Source: Sphaerolaimus hirsutus (lineage: Eukaryota > Nematoda > Chromadorea > Monhysterida > Sphaerolaimidae). From it: DNA of 64,000 nt. This document shows positions 18,701-58,534 of this stretch, piece by piece; the stretch's first letter is position 1; every line of letters begins with the position of its first letter. The DNA lies in assembly GCA_964036195.1 (NCBI GenBank), contig OZ038456.1, positions 19,406,001 through 19,470,000 on the forward strand, given 5' to 3'. The notes beneath the pieces were generated by a model. That model did no database searches, was not told the origin of the DNA, and saw nothing but the letters and a program-made list of their open reading frames with translations. A program made the translations under genes and the position numbers.

Positions 18701-19511
18701 GAGTGTCGCCTTTCGCAAGCTCTTCGGTGACAGGTTGCGCTTGATGTTGCGAAATGTCAAGCATGGTTGATGTGAGAGGTTCAGCTAAAAATGTGGGTCC
18801 GGTAAACCACATTGTTTCGATCATTAGTTGATCAAAAGTACAACCCCGTGATGCGATGTCAGCTGGGTTGTCTTTTGTAGCAACCTTGCAAATTTGAATG
18901 CAATGTTTTGACATTAGTGAATGGATTTTTGTGACCCGATTGTTGACAAAAGTAGCCAGCGGCTTTGCGGTATATAGCCAGCCGATGACAACTGTGCTAT
19001 CGGTCCAAAGGAAATTACTGTGAATTTTCCATCCACCCAGCTCAACGAGTTCATGATGTAAATAATCGATGAGCTGTGCACCAATTGTGACACCTAGCAA
19101 TTCCAAGCGTGTGATTGTGAGGGGTTGACCTTGTTTTGACGGAAGTGGGGCTAGTTTTGTGCGAGCTGTGAGAAAACCACTAAAATATCGGTCATCTTCA
19201 TAGCCATATTCGTCGGGTGAAATCGCTTTTTGACGCAAATAAGCACAAACGGCGTATCCATCTTTTGAGGCATCACAAAACACATGTAATTCTAATGGCC
19301 GTGTGACGGCTTTGACATCGATGCCAAAAGAATGAAATGAGCGCGGGAATTTGATTTGACTTATGGACGAGAGATGTCGTTTTAAATCGTCCAGTAAGTC
19401 ATCCGCCTCTGGGTCTTCGATAAGTTCATCCCAGGTTGTGATATTGCACCTTTGAATTATTTGTGACACGCGAAATTTCAACCGAAATAACAGCGGGTGC
19501 TGTGATGCCAA
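15732..19511 (-). CDS. pol: BEL pol: RNase H and integrase, running into envelope-like N-terminal part
   Basis: The frame holds a BEL-type RNase H region (HVFCDASKDGYAV near 19290, WTDSTVV near 19000). Next come an integrase zinc-binding HHCC module (HELAGHSG ... CVTCRKAEGG, about 18155-18010) and a DDE core (GIDYMGP, WSDNAPAF, YERMVGLVKR, about 17930-17620). An integrase C-terminal domain of the kind found in BEL elements follows (near 17100-16930). The frame does not stop there: after a Ser/Gln-rich linker an internal ATG at 16697 begins a hydrophobic signal-like segment and a Cys-rich ectodomain, ended by TAG at 15732. The nominal start at 19511 is only where this frame begins; reverse transcriptase is in the preceding frame. 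Confidence 0.9.
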   Translation of the reverse strand: MASQHPLLFRLKFRVSQIIQRCNITTWDELIEDPEADDLLDDLKRHLSSISQIKFPRSFHSFGIDVKAVTRPLELHVFCDASKDGYAVCAYLRQKAISPDEYGYEDDRYFSGFLTARTKLAPLPSKQGQPLTITRLELLGVTIGAQLIDYLHHELVELGGWKIHSNFLWTDSTVVIGWLYTAKPLATFVNNRVTKIHSLMSKHCIQICKVATKDNPADIASRGCTFDQLMIETMWFTGPTFLAEPLTSTMLDISQHQAQPVTEELAKGDTHISRPLYAGAVTSQPVSQPDSQPANALAQQVPVNLDPNLSQNVTPQNPFVESRQRHIPSNPFEIDIRRFSTLSKLLRTVVYLLRVKTYWLNRSMHKAAKRESEYLSKPITQADLNEAFRHVLRISQAEECASCISQAQLGKHHMLKWDAWNNLLYCVTRVSHKEHRNPSLFYYLPKNGWLTTLVVTHFHELAGHSGMLHTLADLREHCWLSSAKQVVAKILRKCVTCRKAEGGPFTLPDFHTLPVTRTQSQIKPFQHIGIDYMGPLVYSQNGTHHSQHILLLTCFSTRAIHLESTNSVSTADTIMALNRFISRRGMPDTIWSDNAPAFKNCVKMLPDVKWHFITANSPWQGGVYERMVGLVKRLLKKACGRRCLTWHEFLTVMLDVEFSVNTRPLSYLSNTDIGAAILRPIHFLWGTPPPCYMDEKREMELDSTMIEPMRKIPKEEWDKLTDGSFELTPSQIGKSYTLTPPRVNDVNCIDEIALNSVPEKDRDDITLLWDQIRHNREVLWYEWSRQYIDLLKDRAKNQRLKKGTINEAPKRGQVVLITDDKQPRGMWQMGRVHEIHVSSDGKIRAVTVLSSNGRRTRRSPSNLVPLDIDTEDGVEYKIDTEVKDDDNSQPSPDKGDDSQTDQSHQQSQSSQQDARRANPRRTCRYTGTYSFWGNVSHLMALTLLIQSKLANALTWTDQYHKTFNLCHKTRTGHAIQLPEKVTCHFPQVTAIEDIVVSIWTLRVQPQTTPIYRCFQQEHTIVTYMSLVGGKAMLPPEIIKNHRVTTYDCMIAYQNKTWKGEPLIKIGHALWSTNKSLHIDYCYFCHNLSNTVMNFHIEEGVVASLDGKKIVSEIQDLSHCNPQAGYCYDSDNGVSLWNATAFNKQCAFQEIGQFDAQYSQNHYIVEKLQAAFSVTWRSQQFPNNAECVPKDAKYIDQGSAFIQFLRYQLKKLKKPETEKAPLHFKLAPNLDVGVFHLLTARQQYEVDKIAHLEQKQFGSI
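16697..16700 (-). other. internal ATG, likely start of envelope-like protein
   Basis: The ATG ends at 16697 on the + axis and begins MALTLLIQSKLANALTW, a plausible signal peptide, directly after the integrase C-terminal domain. It marks where the envelope-like region starts within the long pol frame. Expression would need a spliced or internal message, or cleavage of a polyprotein. Confidence 0.5.
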
Positions 19512-21696
19512 TAGGATCGTATGTTGAAGCCAGCAATTTGTTCAAATTGCGGCGTGTGGCTGTGACAATGAGCGTGAAATCTTTCTTAGGAGCTGGCACC
19601 GCAATGGTGTCTTCAATGTGATCGTAAACGAGACCCATTACTTTGATATATTGTGACTTTTTCGGGTTGAGGTCATCAGGTTTGATTTTCTCCGAAACCA
19701 TAGGCGAATTTGTCATCCATTCGCGCATGTTGAAATTTGCTCTTGCAAAAACAGCTTTAATTAAACGATAGAGCTGTATTGCATATTTGTCATCATCTAC
19801 GCTGATAACTAAATTATCAACGTAAATGCTGTTGAGCAACAGCTCCAGTTTCATTCGTTCATTGGTCTCAGCGGGATGCATGTGAGCTAATTCCGCTTCT
19901 AGGTGATATTTGATAACAGTTGACAAAATGGATGGACTGCATGTGAGACCAAACAGCACCCTTGTGAATTGCATCATTTGAATATTGTCTTCATGAGATG
20001 GAATGGTGTCATCACGCAGCCAGTAAAATTTTGTGAAAGCGCGTGATTTTTGGTGAAGAGCAATTTGTAAAAATGCTTTCTCAATATCTGCTAATAACAC
20101 CACTTTTCCGGCTCTGAAGCGAAGCATTAATCCGAGCGCCAGTGGTGTGAGAACTGGGCCTCGAAATAAGCAATTGTTGAGACTTGGCTTGCCTGCAGAA
20201 CCATCATACACTATTCGACATGTTGTCGATCTGCCAGGTGTGATGACAGGTTGGTGAGGTAAGATGTGTTCTTGCAAACCATCTTGTGAACCATATACGG
20301 GTTCTATGACACCCTTGTGAAGTTGATCTGAGATGACTTTCGCGTATGTGGCGAATAAATCGGGATCTTTTCTGAACCGTTTCAACAGTGACAGAAAGCG
20401 ACGAAATGCTTCTGCATTGTTGGTTGGCAATTCTTGAATGGTTGATTTGAATGGCCAATCCACGCTATAGCGACCAGTTTCTGGATCGAGAGTAATTGAT
20501 TCCAGAATTAACTGTTCAGCTATGTCATCATCATGTGATAATGGATCATCTGTGATACCTATTGACTCAAGACTGTGAAACTGAAATAATGTCTCTTGGC
20601 CAACAGCAACAGCTGATGAAGCATGTGAACTGCATGAAACCATGAATTGATGTGGTGAAATGTCAGGTGTTGTGACAAATGACTGTGATGACGCATTTCC
20701 ACCAAGCATCAATCCAAGTATTGATTCGACTATGATCAATCCAGATGGGAGTTCGATTTCTGTTGGTCGAATGTCGAACTTCCAATAATAGTCTTGACCA
20801 ATGACTACATCTGGTTGACATAATTTGTGACAAAACTCATCAGTCATTTCGGTCAATTCAAGCGGTTCCGCGAATTGTTCTTGTGCATGTTCACCGTACA
20901 CAATATAAATGACTGTTTTGTCATCTTGTGACAAAGGAGGTGGGCATGCATATGTTGCCAAATTATCCACTGCACGTAAAGTGAGCGGAATTTGTAACAT
21001 ATTGCCCTTATTGTCGACGTGTTTGTAAATAGGCATGACAGCCTCGACCAAAAACGTATTGACTGTGACAGGCGTTTTTGTCGCAAACACATTCATTTGA
21101 AGAACAACATCTCCTTTGTTTTCAAAGTTATACTCATTTGCCACGGATGCCTTAATGTATGAATATTCGCATCCAGTGTCAAAGAATATTAACAAAGGGT
21201 CTGTGACTCGATTTAATTCAGCGTCTTTATTAATTAATGAAGCCTGGGCCACTTGCAAACGAACAATAGGCGCAAAATCGAACTCACATTCTTGTTCTGC
21301 CTGCTGTCTGGTAGCGGTGTTGGGGTTACCGTAACCCGCCTGTGCGCTCAGCACCTCCACCGTGGGCCTGTGACTGGGTTGAAGTGGCACCGACGATGAC
21401 ATTTGGTTCGGGTTGAGGTGTGGGTACATCTCGTACCGTTTCTGCTGGAAGCCGCGGATTTTGGCTTCGACGGTCTCCATGTCCATGTCGTCCTTGATGA
21501 GGCTGGCGCGGAGCGTCGTCCACAGCTCATTTTCGCTGTGATACTTGCGGGCTTCCTCTTGAGCTCTAGCCTGGAGCTCATTCGCGGGCTTCGGCCATTC
21601 GCCCATGTCCAGCGGGCCGTCCATATCCAGTTGATACAGCGTATGCTGTCTCCACCGGAAATCGTTCTCGTCCGGTGGGATGACACACACGCTCAT
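19426..21696 (-). CDS. pol: BEL pol: aspartic protease and reverse transcriptase
   Basis: A 756-codon frame. The protease active-site DTG is in LIFFDTGCEYSYI (Asp about residue 173), the form seen in BEL/Pao. The reverse transcriptase follows with TCRIVYDGSAG, LLADIEKAFLQI, FGLTCSPSIL and the catalytic YVDN at residues 625-628 (usual form YVDD). The frame overlaps gag by 119 bases in the +1 register, so a frameshift is expected for Gag-Pol. It ends early: after STYDPIGITAP the reading continues sensibly only in the next frame, a one-base change near 19497 at a short C run. Confidence 0.92.
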   Translation of the reverse strand: MSVCVIPPDENDFRWRQHTLYQLDMDGPLDMGEWPKPANELQARAQEEARKYHSENELWTTLRASLIKDDMDMETVEAKIRGFQQKRYEMYPHLNPNQMSSSVPLQPSHRPTVEVLSAQAGYGNPNTATRQQAEQECEFDFAPIVRLQVAQASLINKDAELNRVTDPLLIFFDTGCEYSYIKASVANEYNFENKGDVVLQMNVFATKTPVTVNTFLVEAVMPIYKHVDNKGNMLQIPLTLRAVDNLATYACPPPLSQDDKTVIYIVYGEHAQEQFAEPLELTEMTDEFCHKLCQPDVVIGQDYYWKFDIRPTEIELPSGLIIVESILGLMLGGNASSQSFVTTPDISPHQFMVSCSSHASSAVAVGQETLFQFHSLESIGITDDPLSHDDDIAEQLILESITLDPETGRYSVDWPFKSTIQELPTNNAEAFRRFLSLLKRFRKDPDLFATYAKVISDQLHKGVIEPVYGSQDGLQEHILPHQPVITPGRSTTCRIVYDGSAGKPSLNNCLFRGPVLTPLALGLMLRFRAGKVVLLADIEKAFLQIALHQKSRAFTKFYWLRDDTIPSHEDNIQMMQFTRVLFGLTCSPSILSTVIKYHLEAELAHMHPAETNERMKLELLLNSIYVDNLVISVDDDKYAIQLYRLIKAVFARANFNMREWMTNSPMVSEKIKPDDLNPKKSQYIKVMGLVYDHIEDTIAVPAPKKDFTLIVTATRRNLNKLLASTYDPIGITAPAVISVEISRVTNNSKVQYHNLG

Positions 21697-23527
21697 CGGT
21701 TCCGTGTGTGAAGGCGGATACGATGGCGGTGCATGTGACGAAGCTGCGCCCGTTGTGATTACCTACCGACGAATTAGCGCTCGTTGCTTTGACAAAGGCT
21801 TTATTTTGTGAATTGTTTACCTGACGCCTGGCGGGTGCCTGTCTGGTAGGACAGAACGCCCCGTGATGTTGACCAATCTGGCGACAATAGTAGCAACTCA
21901 ATCGTTGAGTGCATTGTGCCGCTTGATGGCCTCTGCGTGTGCAGCGCGTGCACACGTCGCCCAAAGCTTGCAACCGTTCAGTGCGCTCTCTCGGTGTGAC
22001 GTATTGAGGGCAATCGGTTGTGTAGTGCTCTTTGATGCCACAGAACAGGCACTCGAATTTCGGCTTGCGATAGTCAGCAGCAGGTTGTGAGGACTGCTTT
22101 TGACTAATCGCTCCGATCGCCGGAGTTCTGGGAGGTTGGGTGGAATTTTTATTTTTTCCTTGTGGTTTACCAGCGTTAGCATTGGTACCAGCAAAAGCAA
22201 CCGTATTGTGAATAGGTTTTTGTTTTGTAAAGGTGTTTTGTGATTTATTTCCTTTTTTCTTTTGCTGTTGCCAACCTCCTTCATTTTGTGACTTTTTAAA
22301 CGATGAATTTTGTGATTTCTGAACAACATTTGAAGATTGTGAACTTGGTTGTTCAGTTTTCATCGCATCTAAACGAGCACGAGCAATGGTAGTTAACGCA
22401 TCAACAAACCTGACGACTGTGAGTTCTGTGTCGCCAGTTGCAGCAGTGTGCATCGAGTTCCGGTGTTCTTCTGTGACGGCAAGAACAATATTATCGGGTA
22501 AATAACCACGAATTATTCTTAACACTGCACCAGAATCGACACTTTCACCCCTTTCTTTAAGTTGATTGAGAGTTGACAAAAGGGTTCGTGTGAAATTTGT
22601 GAGAGAGTCTCCTCTTGACGAAGGTTTTTCAAGTGAATACAATTTATCCCAAAGGGCGGCTTGTACCCGATGCGTTTCACCAAAGTTTGATTTTAACATG
22701 GTGACCGCTGTGATGTAATCTCGACCATCACCTTTTAATCCGGCCAGCAGTTCCGCTGCTGGACCGATAAGGCTGAGCTTGAGGTATGTATATTTCATAC
22801 CATTTGACAAATTAGCTCGGTCGTGAATTTGAGCTCGAAAAATCTCCCACCAAGCTGCCCATTCTAACGGATCACCGTTATATTTAGCAAGCTCGATTTT
22901 AGGTAACTTTAACAAAGTTTCCGGTTGTGAAGGTTGAGAACTACTACCCATATTGATATTGTTGTAAGGGGGTTGTGAAGGGGGTTGAGTAGTGAAATCA
23001 ACATTAACATTTGACTGACCTTTCAAGGAAAGTATCAACCTTTCCGCGGATTTGATGTGCGCTTGGGCAGACACCATTTTCGATTCCAGCTCATCCATGA
23101 GCATCGTCGCGTTGTTCGAGCCCGAATAGAGCGCGCACTCCAATTTTGCGTTGGCGCTCTTCGCTTCTTCGGCTACTCCGTCTTGGTCTCTGTCCAAGCT
23201 TGTGATGTAATCTTGGACAATAGATGTGAATCTGTCCATAGCTGTGGACAGGTCCGAGCGTTTCAGCTCGGCTTGGTAGACGTATGCCTGAAGTGATTCT
23301 AACACTTCCTCCGCCGCTTGTAAGTTTACAGCGGCGGGTTGTGACTCGTCTTTGACGATTTTAGGAATCGGTTTAGTTGTGAATCGTAACACGCCGGTGC
23401 GTACTCCAGTCAACGCTTGGCTATGCTGAGTCAATGGATGAGTTGTGTCGGACTCATCTACGTTGCTCTGAGGCATAGCTGAGGCGGCAGTTGCACCTCG
23501 CAAAGCGCGTAGGCGTTCGTCGGCCAT
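21578..23527 (-). CDS. gag: BEL Gag
   Basis: A 649-codon frame starting about 260 bases inside the primer site. An N-terminal charged helical region (residues about 60-170) is followed by the BEL/Pao gag core, LPKIELAKYNGDPLEW near residue 206, then SLIGPAAELLAGL. A Gln/Lys/Asn-rich linker leads to three zinc knuckles at about residues 492-560: CLFCGIKEHYTTDC, CTRCTRRGHQAAQC and CYYCRQIGQHHGAFC. The first two are CX2CX4HX4C; the third has one extra residue. The C-terminus overlaps pol in another frame. It appears intact. Confidence 0.92.
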   Translation of the reverse strand: MADERLRALRGATAASAMPQSNVDESDTTHPLTQHSQALTGVRTGVLRFTTKPIPKIVKDESQPAAVNLQAAEEVLESLQAYVYQAELKRSDLSTAMDRFTSIVQDYITSLDRDQDGVAEEAKSANAKLECALYSGSNNATMLMDELESKMVSAQAHIKSAERLILSLKGQSNVNVDFTTQPPSQPPYNNINMGSSSQPSQPETLLKLPKIELAKYNGDPLEWAAWWEIFRAQIHDRANLSNGMKYTYLKLSLIGPAAELLAGLKGDGRDYITAVTMLKSNFGETHRVQAALWDKLYSLEKPSSRGDSLTNFTRTLLSTLNQLKERGESVDSGAVLRIIRGYLPDNIVLAVTEEHRNSMHTAATGDTELTVVRFVDALTTIARARLDAMKTEQPSSQSSNVVQKSQNSSFKKSQNEGGWQQQKKKGNKSQNTFTKQKPIHNTVAFAGTNANAGKPQGKNKNSTQPPRTPAIGAISQKQSSQPAADYRKPKFECLFCGIKEHYTTDCPQYVTPRERTERLQALGDVCTRCTRRGHQAAQCTQRLSCYYCRQIGQHHGAFCPTRQAPARRQVNNSQNKAFVKATSANSSVGNHNGRSFVTCTAIVSAFTHGTDERVCHPTGRERFPVETAYAVSTGYGRPAGHGRMAEARE

Positions 23528-46719: not shown

Positions 46720-47842
46720 GGTACCTAATCAGTTACATTTTTCAAACCACACGAGAAATTTTGCTCATTTTTCACCTGAAAATTAATCGCCCCTGAACAT
46801 CAAGGGCATATTTATGTGCATTCAAGTAGCTAGAAGCAAAAGTGTAGGGTCCATGGTGCAGTAGATTTGCACAGACATCCACATGACATCAGTAACGTCA
46901 GTGGAGTGTGTGGATTGAACATTGGTGGAAAATTGTGGGTTGGATTGAGTTGTGTTTTTTATTTATTTAGTGTGCTTTGGATGGGAAAAGCAGATTGGAA
47001 GATTTGCAGTTTTCAAGGTTTTATTGTCTTAGTTTATTTATTAGTTTTGATTTGAGGAAAATAAAATATAATCTCATTTTGGGAAAAGCACTAAAGAGTT
47101 TGAAGACTTTTTGCAGACACTCTGCCATCATTACTAACATCAAAACTCCATTACAATAAAATACCACTTTTTCCTCATCTAAATCGACTCCATCACAGAA
47201 ACTTCCCGCAAAATTTCCCGCCACTGTAAATGCAGCATAATGTAGGATACACTCATCCTTCCCCACACTGGCACAAAGTGGTGTGCATCATTGATGTTGT
47301 ATTGTGGAAGTATAGGTATTCCACTGAGTTATAGTTACTATGCGTGGAAGTCTACCATAAGACACCAGAATAATGGACCCAATTTGTATTAATATTTTTA
47401 ATCGTGATGCATTTGTTGGGATGCATGGGCTAATTGAGCAGGGAATTTCGGCGCGGCACTTTATTCATCAAATTATGGTAGCATTCAGTGCAAAGTTCCA
47501 CACAGTATAATAAAGCCACTGCGCTTGATTAGTCATCGCTATCAAGTGTAGATGATCTTTGCTCGCTAGATCGTATCACTAGGTATTGGAGACATTTTTA
47601 GACATTCAAGCTGAAATATATACATCCTATGTCTTTTTGATGGAAATTTTTCATTTTATCAACTGTCTTTGGAGGATATTTATGTTTTTAATTTCTTTAC
47701 GTTCGTTTAAACACTTTTTGATTTATTGAATTTTAGAATTTTTCAAGAATTTTGTTCTGTGCGTTTTTTTTCAGATGTGAAGTAAAAAGTAGTTTCTTTT
47801 GCCAGAAAGAAGTGGCAATACCGTTTCTGAATGTATTGCATG
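46720..47842. other. spacer, no gene seen
   Basis: A minus-strand 81-codon frame (47266-47021) has mixed composition but no family resemblance and no clear splice context. A good acceptor followed by a stop-rich stretch is near 47775. Nothing called. Confidence 0.4.
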
Positions 47843-48429
47843 CAACGATGGGTAAGTTCTCCAAAAAAAAACACTTTCTGTGTTTTGAGTTTTTCAAAAA
47901 TGAATACCTGTGTTTTGAGTTTTTTTCTTGAAAAAAACTTGAGTAACTCTGTTTTTATTTATGTGTTTTTTGTAAAAACTCGAGTTTTTTGAGTTTTTTT
48001 TTCTAAAAAACTCGAGTTTTTTCCAAAAAATATGATTCGAGGTTAATTCGAGGTAATAAGGTATACTTAAATGTCGAAACTTAAATTGTCAAATCCACCA
48101 TGAGATGTGCATGTCATCTTGAATTTCTTTTTTGTACCATTATAAAATATGAATACATTATGTACATATTTACATACTATACATGCTTATCTTATCTTGT
48201 TTAGTTTCACTGAATTAATGTGCATTCAACTGCTTCGCTGAAAAAAACACAAAAACTCAAAAAAACTTTTCTGTGTTTCCGTGTTTCTGTGTTTCCGTGT
48301 TCTCCAAAAAAAAACTCAATTGAGTTTTGAGTTTTTCAAAATTTATGAGTTTCCGTGTTTCTGTGTAAAACAAAAACACATAAACTCAATGAGTTTCTGT
48401 GTTCAATTTCTGTGTTTTTTCCATCGTTG
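47843..48429. mobile_element. hAT MITE, CAACGATGG family
   Basis: CAACGATGG to CCATCGTTG, flanked by ATTGCATG at 47835-47842 and 48430-48437. Subterminal regions consist of TGTGTTTTGAGTTTTT repeats in opposite orientations. Confidence 0.92.
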
Positions 48430-48639
48430 ATTGCATGACGGCTATGGGGTCGGACATTCGGAAACAAAATGTTGATTCAATTAGCAAAGTGCATGCTGTG
48501 CTTTATCGCAAAAAGCTTCAACATGCCAAAAAAATCTACTCCAGAAAAGTGGAAGTGCGCAAAAAGGATCTATCTTGTCCGATTCAAATTCAATTTGAAT
48601 CCAGCCCTCACCACACTGTTCAAAATGTGTATGAGTAGT

Positions 48640-48851
48640 TTTCAAAGCTAATACAGGCTGGGGCCGATCCCAGACCCTGTAAAATACCCTGGAAATGTCA
48701 AATTTTTTACAAACTGTCAAAAGTTATGTAAAATGCCCAGGTAAAATGTCAAATGTCATGCAAGGTGCCAAACGTCATGTAAAATACCCCGTAAAGTGTC
48801 CTGTAAAATGGCAAGTGTCATGAAAGTGTGAAAAGTTATGTAACATGCCCT
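48640..48851. repeat. TGTAAAATG repeat, left part, split by the LINE
   Basis: Repeats of TGTAAAATGTCAAATGTCATGCAA. Similar sequence resumes at about 55235-55460 on the other side of the LINE, ending with the opposing TCCTGGGACC-type end. The LINE thus inserted into this repeat. Confidence 0.6.
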
Positions 48852-48998
48852 GTATTATTATTATGTATCATTGGGATTCAGGGCCCTACCCCTTTGCAGG
48901 GTTACGCCCTTCCCTGATTACAACCAAAGTGATAGCTGAGAGGATCAGCCCTGTTTACTGTAACGTGTATTGACAGATGTTAACAGATTTTTGTACAT

Positions 48999-51900
48999 CT
49001 ATCGGTCATGCAAATGGCTGGTCCCATAGACTAATAATTTATCAATCTCTCTCCTGTGATTATGACATACTGATTTACCAAGCGGGTTGGTCTTCCAACT
49101 ACACGGGACGGAGCATGTAACATGCGCTATCTTTGTTCTTATATCGTTTGTCCCCCTGCAAACATATAATATGTGGTGCAGATTTGCCACTATTTTTGTA
49201 TATTTGTTTGAGCACATGCTGCATAGCTTGTGGCCACCATGTCCCCTTGTGCGTATAGCATTTAGACGTGCTCCAAACCAATTTAGCTCATTGTACCGAA
49301 CACCCTTAATCTCTATAGACGATTCATCATTCTGTCTATAAGCAAGTGCCGTTTGACTTTGTAATGTTCGCAGAGTTGCTGCTCTGCGCTGCCTATAAAT
49401 ATGCAGTTTTATGTCACTTTTGGTAAGAACGTTTGTATCAATGTTCAGATCCAAAGATTTTTTTGCTGTCTCTCTTAGCACTCTGGTCGTGTTGTCAACA
49501 CGTAACCTTCTATTTCCTGCCAATGTGCTATCTATATCCCATGCTCTATATAGCCATCTTGTCTTGTCTATCCTAGACATGTAATTATCATTTGTCAGAA
49601 CAAGTTGGAAATATTTGTCTGATGGTAATATACCATCCAGATCATGTAGTAGCGCGGCGCTACTTGTTTTGCTCGGTAGTCTTGAGATATTTCGTAGCGT
49701 TTGTATATACAACTTATCCATTTGTGTTAGCGCATTTCTCGATAAGCCGGTGATTTCCACACCAAACATGCTGGCTGGTTCAACGTAGGATTTCCATGTT
49801 ATTTTTCCATTGTATATTGGCGCCCCTGAGTTTCTTGCTGCAGATATTGCAAGGCTTGATAGTTGTTTCATTTTTATCAAACGATTTGCATTATGCTCTG
49901 AGAATGGATCAGGCCCTCTGTTTATTTGAACTCCCAGGTATCTGATGCTATCCGTTTCGTGCAGCAATGTAGTGGTTGGGTTTTCAGGATCCCCAACCAG
50001 CAGAGGCCACAATCTTTTTTTGCGCTTAGAAGTCCCCCACCGAAGCACTTCACTTTTAGTTGGGTTAATTGATACACTCCATGTCCAGGACCATTTGCTG
50101 AAGACACTTAAAAGGGTTTCTAAGTCACTATCTCTACTTGCCAACAAAACTATGTCATCAGCAAAGAACAAGGCCGGTATTTTGTCTTGTTCAAGACCAC
50201 ATTTGGCACCGCATCCTGTCTCAAGCAGGACATTAGCGAGATCATGCATGTAGATTGCATATAGTGTTGGACTCAATGCACAGCCCTGTGCAACTCCAAG
50301 TGGGTAATCCAGCGGGTCGCTTTCATAGCCCCCATATGTCATTATTGCTTTCGTATTGGAGTATACTCTAGATATAGCACCTACAAGTATTTCCGGTACT
50401 CCCATTTTCCGCATTTTTAGCCATAATTTTTGTCTATCTACTCTATCAAAGGCTTTTACTGCATCTACGAAGCACGTGACGAACTCATTTCCATTAGCTT
50501 GTGCATAGTTGAAACAAGTTTTCAGTATTTGAACATTGTCTAGTGTTCTCCTACCTGGTCTGAAGCCACCTTGCATTTCTGTTAGAGCATTAGTGTCTTC
50601 CAACCATCGTATGAGACGTTTGTTTATTATAGACATATACACTTTTTTGACATTACATGATAAACCAAGGGTTCTGTAATTTTTCAAATTTCCCTTGTCT
50701 CCTTTCTTGTGAAGAAGTATCATTTTACATAAAGTGGCATCTATAGGAATCTCACCCCCATGAAGCCAATCATTAAAGATGTCGCAAATGCGTGACATAT
50801 GCTCATCACCCAAAATTTTGAGGTGTTCGTGGAAGATAGAGGTAGTCCCATATGATTTATTGTTTTTCAATTTGTGAATAGCCTTTTCTAGTTCGACCAT
50901 ATTTATATCCATTGTTAGTTTCTTCCTTTGTTTATAACTAGTTTGAATGTTTTTCACTGACTGTGTTGTGATTTGGGAGACTTCTTGTCCCGGATGTTTG
51001 TTCATAACCACAGACCATGCTTTTTTCAGCTCAATTTTCATCTCTGCATCATTGGCGATGATTTTACCGTCATCGGCATGAATTGTATGAACAATTCCTC
51101 TGTCCCTGTGGCGGATATCATTCACACGTTGATATACAGCATTTATCTCCATTGCCGCACCGCCTTTTGCAAGTTTATGTATTACATAATCCTTGCGGTT
51201 CCTCTCATGTTCTTTTTTAAGTGATATCAATTTCTTTCTCTCTGTGTGTAATTGGTTGAATAGCTGATCGGTTTTGTTTGTGGCAGCTGATCTCCCTTTA
51301 CCGGCTGGAACACCGTGTTCTTTTCGTTTTATCTGTCGTCTCAGTTTTGCAATAACTTTTCCTTGCTTACGTATGCACAGTGGAACTTTGACTGGTAGTG
51401 GAGCCTTCACTTCCACCAATGCGGCTTCTGGGATGTCATGTATCACATCGTGATATGTGAGCATTTTTTTCTCTGACAATTTCTGCATGAAATCCATTTC
51501 TTCTTTATGGGTTTTAGGTCGCCCTATTTTGAAGTTTTCTTTCTTGCATTCGTAATGGTAGTCTAACTTAATCACCATTGCGTTATGATCTGACTGAATG
51601 GTACTGTATTCTCCTATTTCGTCAATGAATCCAGATGATATCAGATTTGGATTATTTGAAAGACACAAATCTATCACAGAATTAGCATTTCTTCTTTTAA
51701 ACGTCCACAACCCTTGCATGACAGGGTTCAGAAGCACTAGTCCGCTGCTGTGAATGAAATCTCTAACTAAATGTCCATTTTCATTTATTGTGGGGTCATT
51801 GTGCGGTATTCCTAGGTCATCAGAGCCTATATGACCATTGAAGTCACCCACAACAATAACATCTTCACTGCTACTGGAATATCTATTAGCTGAAACAGAT

Positions 51901-54386
51901 ATGTAGTGAAGGATTTTTTTATTTAACTCGTGTATCTTCAAGGATTTTTTACTCTTTGTGTTGTTTTCCATATAGGCAACAATCACGTTCAGGTTAACAC
52001 GTTTGTTTGTATCAGAGCGCTTAGCATCCCGTGAGGCACCTTTGTTGTGATTGTATTCAATTTTTATATCCAATACATTTTTATTCACATGATCATCAAC
52101 TTTGTTTAGTGTGTATTTAACACCTTTGCGAATATAAATAGAGATACCTCCTGTACCTTCTAACCCCTTATAGGTATTTACTGAGCAGTATCCACCAATT
52201 TTTGATACATCTCCATGATCAGCATGTTGTGTTTCAGTTAGACACAAGATATCTGCACCTGTTTTGAGTAAAGTATCTAGAAGCGCCATTGATTGATTGT
52301 TTAAACAGCGTACATTTTGATAGAAGAGTGTCAATGCAAAATGTTCAAGGAATGAGTATGCGCCTGGCATATCAGACCCTGATGTTGCCTCTGTACCAGG
52401 TACCAACCACAATATAATGAATGTCATCAACAAAAATTTTGAGTTATATGGTAGCGACAGTTTGTGTAATGAGTAAATTTTCTGGCCGTAGGTCAAACCG
52501 AAATAGATTAACCAGTAGCAATTTAATTCATAGACGGTAAACAGTTCAAGAAATACGTATACCATTGTAAAGTGTACTGCAAAGGTACAACTTGTACCAT
52601 CCATGAGTAATTTCCTCTTTAATTCCATCCACGTTGTTTTCAACCATTCTTTTCGAGCCTTGTATGAAATAACCAACATGTGGTTTTTTAAATTTTGAAA
52701 GATATGAGGCAAGATAGAAAATGCTAAATGAGTCGTTTTATGACCCCATGTAATACTAGCATGTATACAAATAATCATGCTGAAAATAAGTATTGTTTTC
52801 GCCCAACCGCTGTTAACGCATGATAGCGAAATAAGCAACAATGAGATTAAAAAAGCCAGTTGGGATGAACACCATATTGTATAGCTTGATACAGATTTGA
52901 TATTTTCAGCAGCAACTTTATTATGATGCGATTTGTATAAATGCGAAGGTAAACAACCAAACTTTGTGGAAGGTTTATGAGGTGATAAAATACGCCTTTG
53001 TCTATCGATATCCGTGTTTGAAGTAGCTTTGAATTTCGAGGTTGTCTCTTTTTCATGTGTGCTGTCTAAAATTTGAGGCAAAGCCCATTTTGTCACCCAT
53101 AATGCTTTGAATAAATTAATTTGATAATTTGCAAACTCGATGCACGTGAAAATCATATGTGTAAAAACGCATATAAAAATGCTATTCACTGAGCATCCAA
53201 AGACCATCCCCATGCTGCGCGGAACACAAACACATAGTAGCAAATGCATAAAAGTGCATAAAAATAACGCCAAAGAAATATATCGTGAGTGAATCATGTC
53301 CGACATTCTGGGCCAGACCGCACCACCAATCAAAATAACCCGTTGAATATGTGCGGATGCCAAGGTTCCCAATTGAAAACCTGCATTGACACCATGTTGT
53401 ATTATTTCGATTTGTGATCCTATGGATAAATTTCGCACCTGCAGTGTATTATCGATATTTGACCCAGGGATAGATGCGAGTAATTTCTCATTTTCTGCAT
53501 ATATAGATAGCCATTCACTTGCCAAGATTTCGTAAGGGATTATACAACTGTAGCATTTTGCACTTTGATAAAAGCTCGTTACAGAGTCAACATAAAGCAT
53601 TATAGATTGTCCCCTGATACTAACCGTCAAAAATGTAAAATAAACCAATTTCGCCCCACAGAAATCAGGCATTTGTTGACAAAAAGTGGGGGTGCCGAAT
53701 GAGTAGGCAGTGCTGCCTGAGTGTTTGATATGGGACATTATGCATTTTGATATAAATCGTCCTTCGCATTTTTCTAAATTTCCCTTCAAAAACTCACCTA
53801 GCCAAAATATGCTTTCAGACGATGATACCACCGGTTTGGTGGGCAAATTTCTCGTCGCGCGCACTTTTTTTTTATCATCCGTCCCAACTTCGTCCATCGT
53901 GTTAGTATATAATGTTAGATTAACTAGAAAATACCACGAACCCTGCCTGTAAGTACATATTAGCCCTTGTGTACTGTTCAAGAATACTAAACATATATCG
54001 ATATTCGATGGCAGCATTTTACTTAGTCGAAATGAACAATTTTGATGTTTTGGAGCATACATTTGGCACATTGCGAGGTCCAAAGACAATTTTTGCGATG
54101 GGTCGCGTAGTGATTGGACACTTGCAATGCACCACACGTACGTATCCACTGCATAGTTCTTCAATAAGCCAGGTATATATGAATGTGACCCAGGTATAGT
54201 CAGCGTACATGATACTCTGCCCTCACACTGATTTATGTCTCGTGTTGGAAGCGTGCCAATGATTATTAAATCATGCGATTTCTGTAAAAAGATGAAAAAA
54301 GTCATCGATGTGAATATGTTAATGAATAACATTAAAACAACAATCAATCTTGTCATCTTTTTATGAAACTTGCACGCGTTAACCAT
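48999..54386 (-). CDS. LINE polyprotein: membrane region + APE endonuclease + reverse transcriptase
   Basis: The frame is open from 55073, but the first 229 codons translate the tandem 5' units, so I prefer the ATG at 54386 (1795 codons). It starts with a signal-like segment (basic residues, then hydrophobic to about residue 35). Two Cys-rich stretches begin NQCEGR (about 54) and EKCEGR (about 205), with several N-x-S/T sites. Then come hydrophobic helices at about 370-392, 394-420, 508-548 (two), 600-635 and 650-668, the last ending LVPGTEA. The endonuclease starts at 684 (FYQNVR, LTETQ, GDFNGH, SDH at 932). The reverse transcriptase follows with FVDAVKAFDR, GVAQGCALSP and FADD near 1409. 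A CSMCSNK ... HHILYVC zinc motif lies near 1724. It appears uninterrupted by stops and so may be recently active. Confidence 0.85.
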   Translation of the reverse strand: MVNACKFHKKMTRLIVVLMLFINIFTSMTFFIFLQKSHDLIIIGTLPTRDINQCEGRVSCTLTIPGSHSYIPGLLKNYAVDTYVWCIASVQSLRDPSQKLSLDLAMCQMYAPKHQNCSFRLSKMLPSNIDICLVFLNSTQGLICTYRQGSWYFLVNLTLYTNTMDEVGTDDKKKVRATRNLPTKPVVSSSESIFWLGEFLKGNLEKCEGRFISKCIMSHIKHSGSTAYSFGTPTFCQQMPDFCGAKLVYFTFLTVSIRGQSIMLYVDSVTSFYQSAKCYSCIIPYEILASEWLSIYAENEKLLASIPGSNIDNTLQVRNLSIGSQIEIIQHGVNAGFQLGTLASAHIQRVILIGGAVWPRMSDMIHSRYISLALFLCTFMHLLLCVCVPRSMGMVFGCSVNSIFICVFTHMIFTCIEFANYQINLFKALWVTKWALPQILDSTHEKETTSKFKATSNTDIDRQRRILSPHKPSTKFGCLPSHLYKSHHNKVAAENIKSVSSYTIWCSSQLAFLISLLLISLSCVNSGWAKTILIFSMIICIHASITWGHKTTHLAFSILPHIFQNLKNHMLVISYKARKEWLKTTWMELKRKLLMDGTSCTFAVHFTMVYVFLELFTVYELNCYWLIYFGLTYGQKIYSLHKLSLPYNSKFLLMTFIILWLVPGTEATSGSDMPGAYSFLEHFALTLFYQNVRCLNNQSMALLDTLLKTGADILCLTETQHADHGDVSKIGGYCSVNTYKGLEGTGGISIYIRKGVKYTLNKVDDHVNKNVLDIKIEYNHNKGASRDAKRSDTNKRVNLNVIVAYMENNTKSKKSLKIHELNKKILHYISVSANRYSSSSEDVIVVGDFNGHIGSDDLGIPHNDPTINENGHLVRDFIHSSGLVLLNPVMQGLWTFKRRNANSVIDLCLSNNPNLISSGFIDEIGEYSTIQSDHNAMVIKLDYHYECKKENFKIGRPKTHKEEMDFMQKLSEKKMLTYHDVIHDIPEAALVEVKAPLPVKVPLCIRKQGKVIAKLRRQIKRKEHGVPAGKGRSAATNKTDQLFNQLHTERKKLISLKKEHERNRKDYVIHKLAKGGAAMEINAVYQRVNDIRHRDRGIVHTIHADDGKIIANDAEMKIELKKAWSVVMNKHPGQEVSQITTQSVKNIQTSYKQRKKLTMDINMVELEKAIHKLKNNKSYGTTSIFHEHLKILGDEHMSRICDIFNDWLHGGEIPIDATLCKMILLHKKGDKGNLKNYRTLGLSCNVKKVYMSIINKRLIRWLEDTNALTEMQGGFRPGRRTLDNVQILKTCFNYAQANGNEFVTCFVDAVKAFDRVDRQKLWLKMRKMGVPEILVGAISRVYSNTKAIMTYGGYESDPLDYPLGVAQGCALSPTLYAIYMHDLANVLLETGCGAKCGLEQDKIPALFFADDIVLLASRDSDLETLLSVFSKWSWTWSVSINPTKSEVLRWGTSKRKKRLWPLLVGDPENPTTTLLHETDSIRYLGVQINRGPDPFSEHNANRLIKMKQLSSLAISAARNSGAPIYNGKITWKSYVEPASMFGVEITGLSRNALTQMDKLYIQTLRNISRLPSKTSSAALLHDLDGILPSDKYFQLVLTNDNYMSRIDKTRWLYRAWDIDSTLAGNRRLRVDNTTRVLRETAKKSLDLNIDTNVLTKSDIKLHIYRQRRAATLRTLQSQTALAYRQNDESSIEIKGVRYNELNWFGARLNAIRTRGHGGHKLCSMCSNKYTKIVANLHHILYVCRGTNDIRTKIAHVTCSVPCSWKTNPLGKSVCHNHRREIDKLLVYGTSHLHDR

Positions 54387-54583
54387 CGTTGGCACACTTC
54401 CAGCGGGAACCACGCTGCAAGGTGTAAAGTAACCGAAGTATATTGTGTGTAAAGTGGAATGTATTTTCGCCCATAGCGTCACTGGATTTGTATGTGACCA
54501 GAATAGGTAGAAACGTATTTCAATATAGAATATGATGTGTATACCAGTGTATGTGTCGTTTAGACTAAGGTAGTTACAGGTGT

Positions 54584-54985
54584 TGCCATTTAATAGCAAT
54601 AAAATGAATTTTCGATAATGTTGGCAGAGTGCCAAAACTCGAAATTTTGGCAGCATGCGCATGCATGCCGCTGTCGATGAGACAAAAATCGATGCATTAG
54701 CACTTTGCCAACAACACTGAAACTCTGTGTCCAACTCAGACACTAGAGATACTGTAGGATTGATGAATGATAGAATGCAGTTGTACGTGGTGCCATTTGA
54801 TAGCGATCTAATGAAATTTCGAAAATGTTGGCAGAGTGCCAAAACTCGAAATTTTGGCAGCATGCGTATGCACGCCGTTGTCGAAGAGACAAAGATCGAT
54901 GTATTAGCACTTTGCCAACAACACCGAACCTCTGTGTCAAACTCAGACACTAGAGGTACTATAAGATTGATACTTGATAGAAAAT
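54584..54985 (-). promoter_or_regulatory. tandem 5' units of the LINE
   Basis: Two units of about 208 bases, the second starting at 54792, share GCCATTT(A/G)ATAGC, GTTGGCAGAGTGCCAAAACT, GCACTTTGCCAACAACAC and AACTCAGACACTAGAG. A third partial unit seems to begin near 54970. Tandem monomers upstream of a LINE ORF act as promoters in mouse L1; the same role here is inference. Inverted TGGCAGAGTGCCAA lies within each. Confidence 0.7.
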
Positions 54986-55204
54986 CACCCAAGTTCGGGT
55001 GTAAAAGTAAATTCGCCAACTTTTGGCATCTGGCCAATTCAGCCGAATCGACTACTTTGTCGATGTTGGGCACATGCCGGACCTCTAGAAGTCGCGACTG
55101 TGCCCTGAAGGCAGAAAACTCATCTGCCTTCCCTACAAACGAGCAACTGAGCTGTGGAGACGCAGGAAACAGTGTCTCTGTAGCTGTGGCCGGAACAGAA
55201 GTTT

Positions 55205-56420
55205 TCCGACCTTTTTTCTTTTCTTTTTTTCAATGTAAAATGTTTCCTGTAAAATGTCAAATGCCATGCAATGTGTCAAAGTTATGTAAAATGTTCTGTA
55301 AAATGTGAAATTCATATTTACTTCTTTACTGGAAGTTCAATATTAGACAGGTCAGTTTACATCATTTTTGACACTTTGCATGACATTTGACATTTTTCAT
55401 AACATTTTACACGATTTTGACACTTTGCATGACATTTCACATTTGACAGGACATTTTACAGAGCCCGTAACTGGATCCTGGGACCGGATTCAATTAGATT
55501 ATAAGGCGCCCAACCTTTGCGCTCAATCACTCGCATCTCGAGCGCCTTACGTGCGCCTTATTTTCTCCCAATTGGATCTGGGACCAGGTCCGAAAATGCA
55601 CCGCGCTGCATCTGCATGCCTCGTGTGCACGAGATGTGCCGCACTGCAGCTTTGTCAGTCACCATTTTGCGTGATGGGCTCACTACTTGGGTACAGGGTG
55701 GGTCATTTTAGATGGATGAGGTTTTTGAGGGCTTTTTCCTGTGGTGATTGGGATTCAATGAGAGAATGTAAAGATTGATCATGACAAAATTTGTCATTTT
55801 TTTGAGAAATGATGATTTTTCTAATCGTTTCTGGGAATAAATCCTGTGGAATTTTTTTGGTGTTTTAATCCATCAAAGCTAAGCAAAAAGCTCACAAATT
55901 GTCAAACTTTGTCAATCTCCAACCATAAATCTACCACCATTGATGTGAAGTTGCCATAATATGGTATTATATTTGAAGTAGCGCCATGGAACAGAAAAGT
56001 GTAGTGCTCTTGTGAGGATTAACCGCAAGCAGTGCACTGGAAGTTTCCTTCCCTTTATTGCTGTCATCTAAAAGAAAAGTGCCTACCAAATGAGGACACT
56101 TTGCACATGGAACTTTTGGATATTTTTGTTGGCAGAAATGTTTTTGTACTTGGATTTTTATTTGCCTTTCTGCCCTCATTAAAAAAAAGAATCATAAGAA
56201 ATATTTTTCATTGGAAATTTTATCTAAATCAGAAAGCTCTTTTTCACAGATAAAATTACCTATTTACAAAAAGCTGGACCCATCAAATACTTATATAAAC
56301 TAAATAAAAAACACCTCCAAGTGTCAGTGAAATAAAGCTAAATTATTGTAAAATTCACTTCACACAGTGCTAATAAAAATGTAGAAAAACAATTAGCTAA
56401 CCCATAAAATATATTTAATA
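55205..56420. repeat. right part of the LINE target repeat, then spacer
   Basis: 55235-55470 resumes the TGTAAAATG repeat. About 55475-55590 holds an inverted pair GGACCGGATTCAATTAGA / TCCCAATTGGATCTGGGACC around AAGGCGC-rich sequence, probably a small element. 55600-56420 shows no gene. Confidence 0.5.
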
Positions 56421-56519
56421 ATGAGCGCAAATCCGGCAATGTGGCGTGCCTCTGCAGTTTTAACAAATTTGGTCAGAATTTTCTGGAAAAAAGTGGACGA
56501 TTGCTTTGAGGGAGACTTG
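56421..56519 (+). CDS. candidate first coding exon of an unknown gene
   Basis: An ATG in an A/T-rich leader opens 33 codons starting MSANPAMWRASAVLTNLVR and ending DDCFEGDL at donor TTG|GTGAGA, phase 0. Codon composition is noticeably richer in G and C than the surroundings, and it is not in any repeat I can identify. I found no convincing second exon; an acceptor at about 57785 (GTGTTTTAG) gives only 14 more codons. I do not recognise the protein. Confidence 0.35.
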
Positions 56520-58190
56520 GTGAGAGTTTTTTTTAGTTTTATTTTTTTTTAAGATGTGCGATTGCCTTTTACACGATATAAATTTTTATGGTTACCGCAA
56601 ATCCTCGAATAATCCCCTCGCTTGAATAACCCCTGGTGACTTCGCGTTAACTATTAAACAGTTTCTGTTAGTTTCATGAACTGATTTGATTGCAAATTTT
56701 ATAATGTATTTAGGTAGGTGTTCTACAAAAAATACCGGACAAAGAATAACACCCCCCTGGGTTAACTCGGCGGACAGAAAAGTATGCGTCCAAAATTACT
56801 TATGTCTTAGCCGATAACAAGTAAGCAGGATACTTATGTACGCATTTTCACAAAAAATAGAATTAAGGGCAGTGTTGATTACAACATATGTTTCATACCT
56901 GAAATAATTTTTCGGAACATTTTTTGTTTTATAAATGATGACTTTATGATGGAGTGACGTCAGTATGTCCACAGGGTATACTTATTTGAGGATTTACGGA
57001 CATGGTATTTAATATTTATAAAAATGCGTTTTCCACTAGAATGGTTGCACAAATCCTGGCATCATTTCCCGTTGGTTTATTTTAATGAATTAATTAGGTG
57101 TGTGGCATTCCAAATTTTAGCTTAGATTAGAACTGTGTGTGTTTGACTTGTGCAAGTGAGGGCATGGTGTTTATCACATATTCCTTTAGTCACATATTCA
57201 TTATAAAGATTTCAGGGATGTAATTTCTATTGAGAGACCCTTCAGAAATTTCTTCAGAAATACCGAGAATTTTAGTGCGCTATTTTTGGTACTTTACTTC
57301 TATCTTTATAGATGCATTTATGTAACTCTGTATATATACAGCATGCTATGCAACCACGCATACTTATGTCTTATGAGCCGATGCCGAACTTATGCACGCA
57401 CTTTCACACAAAAAATTAAGAAATCAAAAGTCGAGTCAAACCAACATATGTTTCATGCCTGGTATAATTTTTTATTTTCGGAACAATTTTTGTTTTATAA
57501 ATGATGACGTCATGATGGAGTGTTTTATTCAAGAAAAATGCATAGCGTGAAGTGTGAACATGTTGCATGCAAATATGTAAATATGTCCCATTGTTTTATG
57601 GCCGAATCTTTAGACATAAAAATGCGGACAACGAGCAGAATTTCAGATGAGCCTTCAGTTGACTGCGTTGTTTACTATTTGCTTTTGACTGATTATGATT
57701 GAAGCTGAAATTCAGTTTGTAGCTCAGCGGTGCGTGCAAAATGCAGTCACTCGGAAAACTGAGCTTTGTAGTTTTTGTGTTTTAGGAAATTGTACATTTA
57801 CGATTGGAAATATCCTGTAAAAATATATGAAATTTTAATAACTATAATTTTTTATTTTTTTTTGGTTTTGGGAATATTGATGATCGAGATCGTGTTATTT
57901 ATTGTGCGTTTTGTTCAAATCTTATTTCAACTGGCAAAATGTGAATTCATGAAAATGTGTATTTTGACGATTTGTGTATTTGTGAAAATGTGTTTCCAGC
58001 TGACTTAACTAAAAAAACGTTTACTAAAAAATTCGTGTTCTGTTTCCATCGATATTTGTGCTTCTCAATGTTTGAGATTTCTGTATTTTTGATTTCTTCT
58101 ACAAAACTCACCGTCTGTTATCGTGGACTTTGCATTTTCAATATGCAAAATGTCTGATAAAAAGATGTGCTACGCCTTTTAAGTGATATA
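56520..58190. other. spacer with degraded elements
   Basis: 56594-56760 has GAATAATCCCC-type pogo cassette remnants. 56765-56982 and 57360-57545 carry GCGGAC / GATGACGTCATGATGGAGTG pieces related to the 10077-10826 cluster. A 77-codon hydrophobic frame at 57775-58008 is probably chance in AT-rich DNA. Confidence 0.4.
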
Positions 58191-58534
58191 TCGTATTTCT
58201 TCTAACAGAAGAGCGTTTTTTTTCGTCAACTTTTTACCTGCAGTTCTATTAGAGGTGCCGTTTTATTGGAGGCTGCCGTTGTATTTTTTCACCAATTTTC
58301 TCACAGATTTCTCATTTCAACATAGCCATTTGAACAACATTTTTAATGAAACTTGGGCAATATTTTAATGCATCAATTTGAGACTAAACACCTATTTGAA
58401 TGCTTTGAATGTTCTCACCATCCATCTTTGATATATTTTTGTGTTTTGACACACTCCCAACATAATTTCTATCTGCCGTTTTATTGGAGGTGCCGTGTTA
58501 TTGGAGGTATGCCGTTCTATTAGAAGAAATACGG
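58191..58534. mobile_element. pogo-like MITE, cassette U
   Basis: TCGTATTTCTTCTAACAGAA to TATTAGAAGAAATACGG with TA at 58189-58190 and 58535-58536. Interior cassettes TGCCGTTTTATTGGAGG. Confidence 0.85.

Follow-up and report, generated by a model that had tools for sequence, protein, structure and literature searches.

The nematode Sphaerolaimus hirsutus carries on contig OZ038456.1 a non-LTR retrotransposon (LINE) whose enzymatic part is preceded, in the very same reading frame, by 684 codons that read like a secreted, multi-pass membrane protein. This raises the question whether such a LINE indeed encodes an envelope-, receptor- or anchor-like protein fused to its replication enzyme, or whether the long open frame reflects something other than a membrane protein. 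For five ORF1 types (I–V), of which types IV and V occur in the CR1/L2 lineages of the Jockey superfamily, the available excerpt of PMC4120745 names no transmembrane form, and it cites the suggestion that the esterase ORF1 targets membranes. Here, we examined the locus within a window of 64,000 nt (the whole stretch of DNA analysed, positions 19,406,001–19,470,000 of the contig) together with its relatives in the same genome. Coordinates refer to the window, and residues are counted from the ATG at 54386.

The element and its open frame

The element (Table 1) has an A-rich 5' start of the AAAAAAAGAAAA type and a 3' end composed of GGGAAGGGCG, ACCC and GGGGTAGGGCCCTG followed by an A-rich tail, both of which are common to its relatives as judged by eye; the 3' end with its tail was recognised by eye in all five ends compared (window, L042, L056, L057 and L058). 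Dispersed copies with this shared 3' end and a simple-repeat tail were found, some of them 5'-truncated, such as L040, which aligns with the window at 97.3% and only up to 52498. On both sides the element is bordered by a TGTAAAATGTCAAATGTC-type minisatellite (48678–48854 and 55239–55460). A minisatellite of the same type also follows the L042 copy on its downstream side, and it may represent a preferred target.

The initial annotation had described an uninterrupted frame including endonuclease and reverse transcriptase, and this was confirmed: read from the ATG at 54386, the minus-strand frame runs for 1795 codons before it meets its first stop at 48999, comprising an APE-type endonuclease (PF14529, residues 801–937; PF03372, residues 691–934) and a reverse transcriptase (RT; PF00078, residues 1227–1488) related to R2 and LINE-1 ORF2p in the PDB, that is, the enzyme pair of a LINE in one frame. 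The proposed start at 54386, however, does not mark the beginning of the frame, which is open from 55229 and hence from approximately the element's own 5' end. Openness of the 684 N-terminal codons is far above chance: none of them is a stop, whereas each of the remaining five frames contains 31–61 and shuffled sequence 45.7 on average.

Elsewhere in the window, a group of neighbouring long ORFs on the minus strand (13806–23527), the downstream one with a hydrophobic segment, resembles by eye a BEL/Pao-like LTR element.

Table 1. Features of the LINE copy and of its 5' region in window coordinates.
Feature	Position	Strand	Basis
Whole LINE copy	48861–55231 (ends approximate)	−	A-rich 5' start; 3' end as in relatives (by eye); flanking repeats
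Single frame without stops, 2076 codons, approximately the whole element	48999–55229	−	
Two 207-bp tandem units, 5' region, upstream of exon 1	54567–54980	−	Repeat scan
Partly palindromic interspersed repeat of ~250 bp, read in frame, encoding residues 1–66	54192–54445	−	
Exon 1 of the LINE protein (ATG, MDEVGTDDKKK...), then donor-like CTAG/GTGAGT	53798–53897	−	Likeness to relatives and donor sequence; donor use putative
Stop-free intron-like stretch, residues ~198–602, source of four "transmembrane helices"; acceptor not located	52581–53797	−	No codon-position signal; hydrophobicity near chance; analogy with relatives
Conserved hydrophobic module, residues ~603–684, with signal-peptidase-like motif LVPGTEA/TSG	52335–52580	−	Putative cut before base 52385
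APE-type endonuclease domain	51576–52319	−	PF03372/PF14529
Reverse transcriptase domain	49923–50708	−	PF00078; PDB matches R2, LINE-1 ORF2p

Origin of residues 1–602

The start resembling a signal peptide and the first CEGR motif, both of which had been taken as features of a protein, turned out to be translated from a high-copy repeat of ~250 bp. Residues 1–66 match 64 other places in the genome at the protein level, each match starting at residue 1 or 2, and this count is a lower bound (at least 64 besides the window, at least 65 in all). All 29 loci fetched (L010–L038) match 54192–54445 at 91–97% DNA identity with nearly identical ends, and in many of these copies, including the one in the window, the repeat is open in one frame across ~66 codons, the first CEGR lying within it. 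Further upstream, the 207-bp tandem units may be promoter-type monomers, which we presume by analogy. In relatives, the frame ahead of the exon 1 ATG is likewise free of stops almost to the 5' end of the element (open codons 1–303 in L059, 1–218 in L063 and 1–373 in L064). This suggests ribosome entry near the 5' end, and the model developed below offers no explanation for it.

At the ATG at 53897, the sequence TNT-M-DEVGTDDKKK resembles an exon 1, with similar TN-M-(D/E)..basic starts seen by eye in L043, L047, L056, L059, L063 and L064; the similarity is short, and blastp gave one weak match (E 0.095 to L064). It ends in a consensus-like donor, CTAG/GTGAGT, at 53797, the window showing the donor only. 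A candidate acceptor is an AG at the start of the conserved module, present in ~11 of 16 alignable rows and absent in L044, L045, L053, L054 and L055. A universal acceptor at or inside the module was rejected, since the AG is not found in every family. Between exon 1 and the module, none of the first-part blocks of complete relatives was recognised (of two matches at E up to 1, neither corresponds to a block), and because of this lack of blocks between donor and module, residues ~198–602 are, by analogy with the relatives, best read as an intron.

No Pfam family matched residues 1–684, nor residues 76–684 at up to E 10, residues 1–684 had no hit among 2513 candidates of the protein collection, and for residues 595–1095 no homologous protein was found among 4745 candidates. 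Searching the genome with residues 76–684 returned 17 matches including the window itself, the other 16 starting at residue 400 or later and 11 of these at residue 592 or later, and residues 76–399 have no match elsewhere in the 348-Mb genome. A conserved membrane domain was rejected as the Pfam, homologous-protein and genome searches were all empty for residues 76–399. The initial annotation had itself named a lack of the region in other copies as grounds for refutation, and this applies to most of it, the part that is kept, in 16 other copies, being the last ~80 residues before the endonuclease.

Moreover, the middle stretch does not look like a protein domain. Residues 198–600 carry no codon-position signal beyond shuffled stop-free sequence (P 0.53), while residues 685–884 of the endonuclease do (0/500 shuffles), although the test has limited power on short or old stretches and misses exon 1 (P 0.60) as well as residues 1485–1795, the last 311 of the RT part (P 0.38). 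Regarding the at least six hydrophobic helices described previously, windows of this kind do exist (seven windows of 19 residues with a Kyte-Doolittle mean of at least 1.4 within residues 1–684), but their number is not clearly above that in stop-free random sequence of the same composition: at a threshold of 1.5, six segments compare to 3.3 expected for residues 1–684 (P = 0.07), four to 2.3 for residues 67–600 (P = 0.17) and four to 2.0 for residues 198–600 (P = 0.12). The "membrane protein" of the window copy is best explained as a 5' region, a captured repeat and an intron, all read in frame.

Conserved blocks and GT...AG segments in relatives

With the endonuclease as query, at least 147 matches were found in the genome (146 of 601 candidates scored), and among the matches listed 45 belong to open frames measuring 2000 aa or more, 14 of them to frames of 4000 aa or more. 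The longest copies of the clade are single frames of 4,137–4,609 aa built of conserved protein blocks with unrelated in-frame segments between them. Comparison was based on seven long stretches of relatives, of which L059, L063 and L064 share ~12 conserved blocks in the same order (30–82% identity, one frame throughout), with intervening segments for which blastp gave no alignment. The first part of these copies comprises, by eye, an exon 1 of basic character, a block resembling a coiled coil and stretches rich in RGG, together with a block whose GDST and DGLH motifs are invariant in 3/3 relatives and which, judging from the motif, may be esterase-like. No esterase family was found for this block in Pfam (L058, L059) and no significant match in the PDB, its AlphaFold model (pLDDT 37.7) was too low in confidence to be used, and it was not recognised in the window copy.

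Ten sites were curated in four copies (L058, L059, L063 and L064), and of the resulting 40 site-copies 30 hold a segment, one is empty and nine were not placed, four of the latter (S1, S3, S4 and S5 of L058) lying upstream of the fetched stretch. Each of the 30 resolved segments begins with GT, ends with AG and has a length divisible by three, and sites shared across families have the same phase, the anchors having been chosen after inspection of the DNA and the count thus not being a blind test. In an automated joint search, a good part of the gaps had no shared GT/AG pair, and the scores of single splice sites vary widely, from −4.2 to 7.9 for donors and from −2.5 to 7.5 for acceptors. In L061, which is the same place as L064, the sequence runs gap-free across two sites that are occupied in other copies. 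Within the esterase-like block, a GT...AG segment of L057 has no counterpart in L058 and L059, and a separate insertion in L058 has the aligned ends GT...CG rather than GT...AG. By their ends, sites and phase, the segments in the relatives look like spliceosomal introns, which would be removed from the RNA.

Segments are free of stops and evolve neutrally

The 30 segments (7077 nt) contain no in-frame stop, whereas their two remaining frames hold 161 and 178 and shuffled sequence ~168; the four long copies concerned had been selected for long frames. In a wider count free of this selection, 61 copies among the rows listed have the exons flanking two introns, and 38 of them form one open frame across 453–1050 nt while 23 do not, with ~0.003 open copies expected by chance at 6.5% stops per codon (one gap-free copy was set aside, and three more first-exon rows had no partner). 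In L057 the frame is broken in the first part. As a host control, 10 of 12 exon rows of the Rpb2 family lie in frames of up to 269 aa and two in one frame of 606 aa; in this small sample, host introns are mostly not open.

Copies L059 and L060 share 99.56% identity across 9852 nt and differ in their 5' flanks, and an intron-bearing copy must therefore have moved or been copied recently. Of their 43 differences, 15 fall into the nine defined introns (1983 nt; 13 nonsynonymous, 2 synonymous), six into conserved blocks (3432 nt; 1 nonsynonymous, 5 synonymous) and 22 into the remainder (4437 nt; 17 nonsynonymous, 5 synonymous). Between these two copies, the intron-like segments evolve like neutral DNA. 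A codon-position signal is absent from the pooled introns (P 0.83) and present in the conserved blocks of L059 (0/200 shuffles). A hypervariable protein under positive selection was also considered and rejected in view of the neutrality between L059 and L060; on distant pairs dN/dS is uninterpretable due to saturation, one comparison also having had a misplaced anchor in L053.

A proposed LINE clade with translatable introns

Taken together, we favour, with a probability of roughly 75%, the explanation that the window element is a LINE copy of an intron-bearing clade, in which many spliceosomal introns are kept translatable and the unspliced RNA is both translated and reverse transcribed. The open frame, the alternation of blocks and segments, the GT...AG ends and the neutrality of the segments are direct observations on which this explanation builds. 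From these we infer that the RNA is spliced, that unspliced RNA is translated, that the enzyme acts with cis-preference and that the window copy has an intron of its own.

In the proposed cycle, a complete element would consist of a long first part, with basic exon 1 and coiled-coil-like, RGG-rich and esterase-like blocks, and an APE-RT part, the whole being interrupted by some ten or more GT-AG introns. Since each intron of an open copy would be 3n in length and free of in-frame stops, the unspliced RNA would form one open frame, whereas the spliced RNA would yield a compact protein. The unspliced full-length RNA would be translated through its introns, the resulting enzyme would bind its own RNA in cis, and this RNA would serve as template for reverse transcription at the target. 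Under cis-preference, a LINE protein binds the RNA encoding it. If the translated RNA is thereby also the copied RNA, introns could persist only if the unspliced RNA yields the enzyme, and they would consequently have to be 3n and stop-free, which is the pattern observed. Such a cycle would preserve introns and, at the same time, select against stops and frame shifts inside them. The window copy would have kept exon 1 and the APE-RT part, with no recognisable first-part blocks in between.

A more far-reaching version appears to us somewhat less probable than an even bet. Here, the clade with its ten or more introns would follow a two-RNA cycle reminiscent of retroviruses, with the unspliced RNA, read through every intron, as the only template, the entire element including its 5' region selected to be stop-free, and spliced and unspliced products differing by intron-encoded segments ahead of a signal-peptidase-like site.

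The hydrophobic module and alternative explanations

Of the alternatives, the one that survives best concerns the ~80-residue module and is compatible with the intron model. Accordingly, the module with PGTEA/TSG alone would act as a membrane or signal module that targets the product either to the ER or to the nuclear envelope, and signal peptidase would free the enzyme; we regard this as possible, albeit with odds clearly on the other side. The module is kept in 16 other copies, L040 covering only its last 54 residues (from residue 631), and at its end Ala occupies −1 and Thr, Ser, Ala or Cys −3 in 17/17 rows while −2 varies freely, a pattern fitting the −3/−1 rule for signal peptidase; since window/L040 and L046/L047 are pairs of near copies, not all of these rows count independently. 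Similar hydrophobic ends, TPVNA, occur in L063 and L064. In five pairs with an endonuclease dS of 0.15–0.63, dN/dS of the module (78 codons around it) is 0.64–0.83, which is weak constraint in comparison to the endonuclease (0.11–0.40), and in the closest pair, L046/L047, the module reaches 1.20 and the endonuclease 0.86. Furthermore, no 19-residue window in residues 601–684 reaches 1.5, the codon-position signal amounts to P 0.076, and the topology would presumably place the enzyme in the lumen. Constraint on the module is thus weak, but probably genuine. Of the cleavage after LVPGTEA put forward in the initial annotation, the conserved stretch and its −3/−1 pattern stand, while the multi-pass protein upstream is not supported, and a membrane-associated or signal-peptidase-like step ahead of the enzyme is possible.

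Two further observations were made around the module. At its start (52554–52577, minus strand), GTACACTTTNNNNNNGTATAC is common to eight copies (window, L041–L044 and L046–L048), synonymous positions included, and could be an RNA or DNA signal. Degenerate in-frame look-alikes of the endonuclease start (FYRNVRCL, LYQNIQ, LYQHFRCL) are found by eye upstream of the real one in L050/L056 (the same copy), L053, L059, L063 and L064, as if the junction had been duplicated.

Alternatively, the segments could be unspliced, inert in-frame insertions, e.g., introner-like or minisatellite DNA, tolerated within a giant polyprotein. Every open copy would then keep its frame without any splicing, and the L058 insertion lacking an AG end as well as the poor scores of some splice sites would fit; against this, GT and AG at 30/30 curated ends, a phase shared across families and a copy that precisely lacks the segments of two sites render this explanation unlikely. 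Slightly less probable still is that an antisense RNA, rather than unspliced sense RNA, is the template and thereby keeps the introns. This has a precedent in what PMC3846280 argues for Penelope-like elements, but it would leave the lack of stops in the sense frame unexplained, and the strand opposite to the N-terminal part of the window frame has 31–61 stops per frame.

Finally, it is very improbable that residues 1–684, joined to the enzyme, represent a genuine membrane protein of the secreted or multi-pass kind, with an envelope-, receptor- or anchor-like role. In its favour, the frame is open far above chance, the hydrophobic module with its PGTxA/T site is kept in 16 other copies and a weak alignable likeness to L041 reaches back to residue ~400 (30% identity), but residues 1–66 are a dispersed repeat, residues 76–399 are unmatched, residues 198–600 lack codon-position structure with helices near chance, searches of Pfam (also with regard to a retroviral or errantiviral envelope) and of the protein collection were empty as given above, and the comparable stretches of relatives have GT...AG ends and evolve neutrally.

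Relation to known systems and implications

In its features, the clade is similar to LINEs with esterase-type or unclassified ORF1 (CR1/L2), with which it shares the APE endonuclease and RT, the A-rich simple 3' tail, 5' truncation as in L040, and the upstream coiled-coil-like, RGG-rich and GDST...DGLH blocks of complete relatives. Unlike these, it includes numerous stop-free GT...AG segments within a single long frame. Retained spliceosomal introns are described for Penelope-like elements, which the abstract of PMC3846280 contrasts with all other retrotransposon types in their ability to disperse intron-containing genes. The present elements, however, carry an APE endonuclease and a LINE-type RT instead, no GIY-YIG domain being among the Pfam hits, and their segments are many and stop-free.

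In retroviruses and complex LTR elements, the unspliced RNA is both message and genome and spliced RNA gives rise to other products. The two-RNA logic proposed here would be comparable, whereas Pfam gave no envelope match and no long terminal repeats were seen in a repeat scan of 47500–58500. Exitrons, i.e., stop-free retained introns of cellular genes, are 3n in length, free of in-frame stops and translatable if retained; the difference is that here this state applies to the introns of an entire mobile element. Elements copied via RNA are expected to lose their introns, and titles and opening lines of abstracts in the open-access literature searched revealed no LINE whose first protein is transmembrane and none that contains multiple introns.

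For genome annotation, these elements are a warning, as stop-free AT-rich introns read in frame mimic multi-pass membrane proteins. If the explanation is true, a LINE clade with many translatable introns would offer a way to test how a retroelement decides which of its RNAs, spliced or unspliced, serves as message and which as template, and whether introns can be held in place by cis-preference alone.
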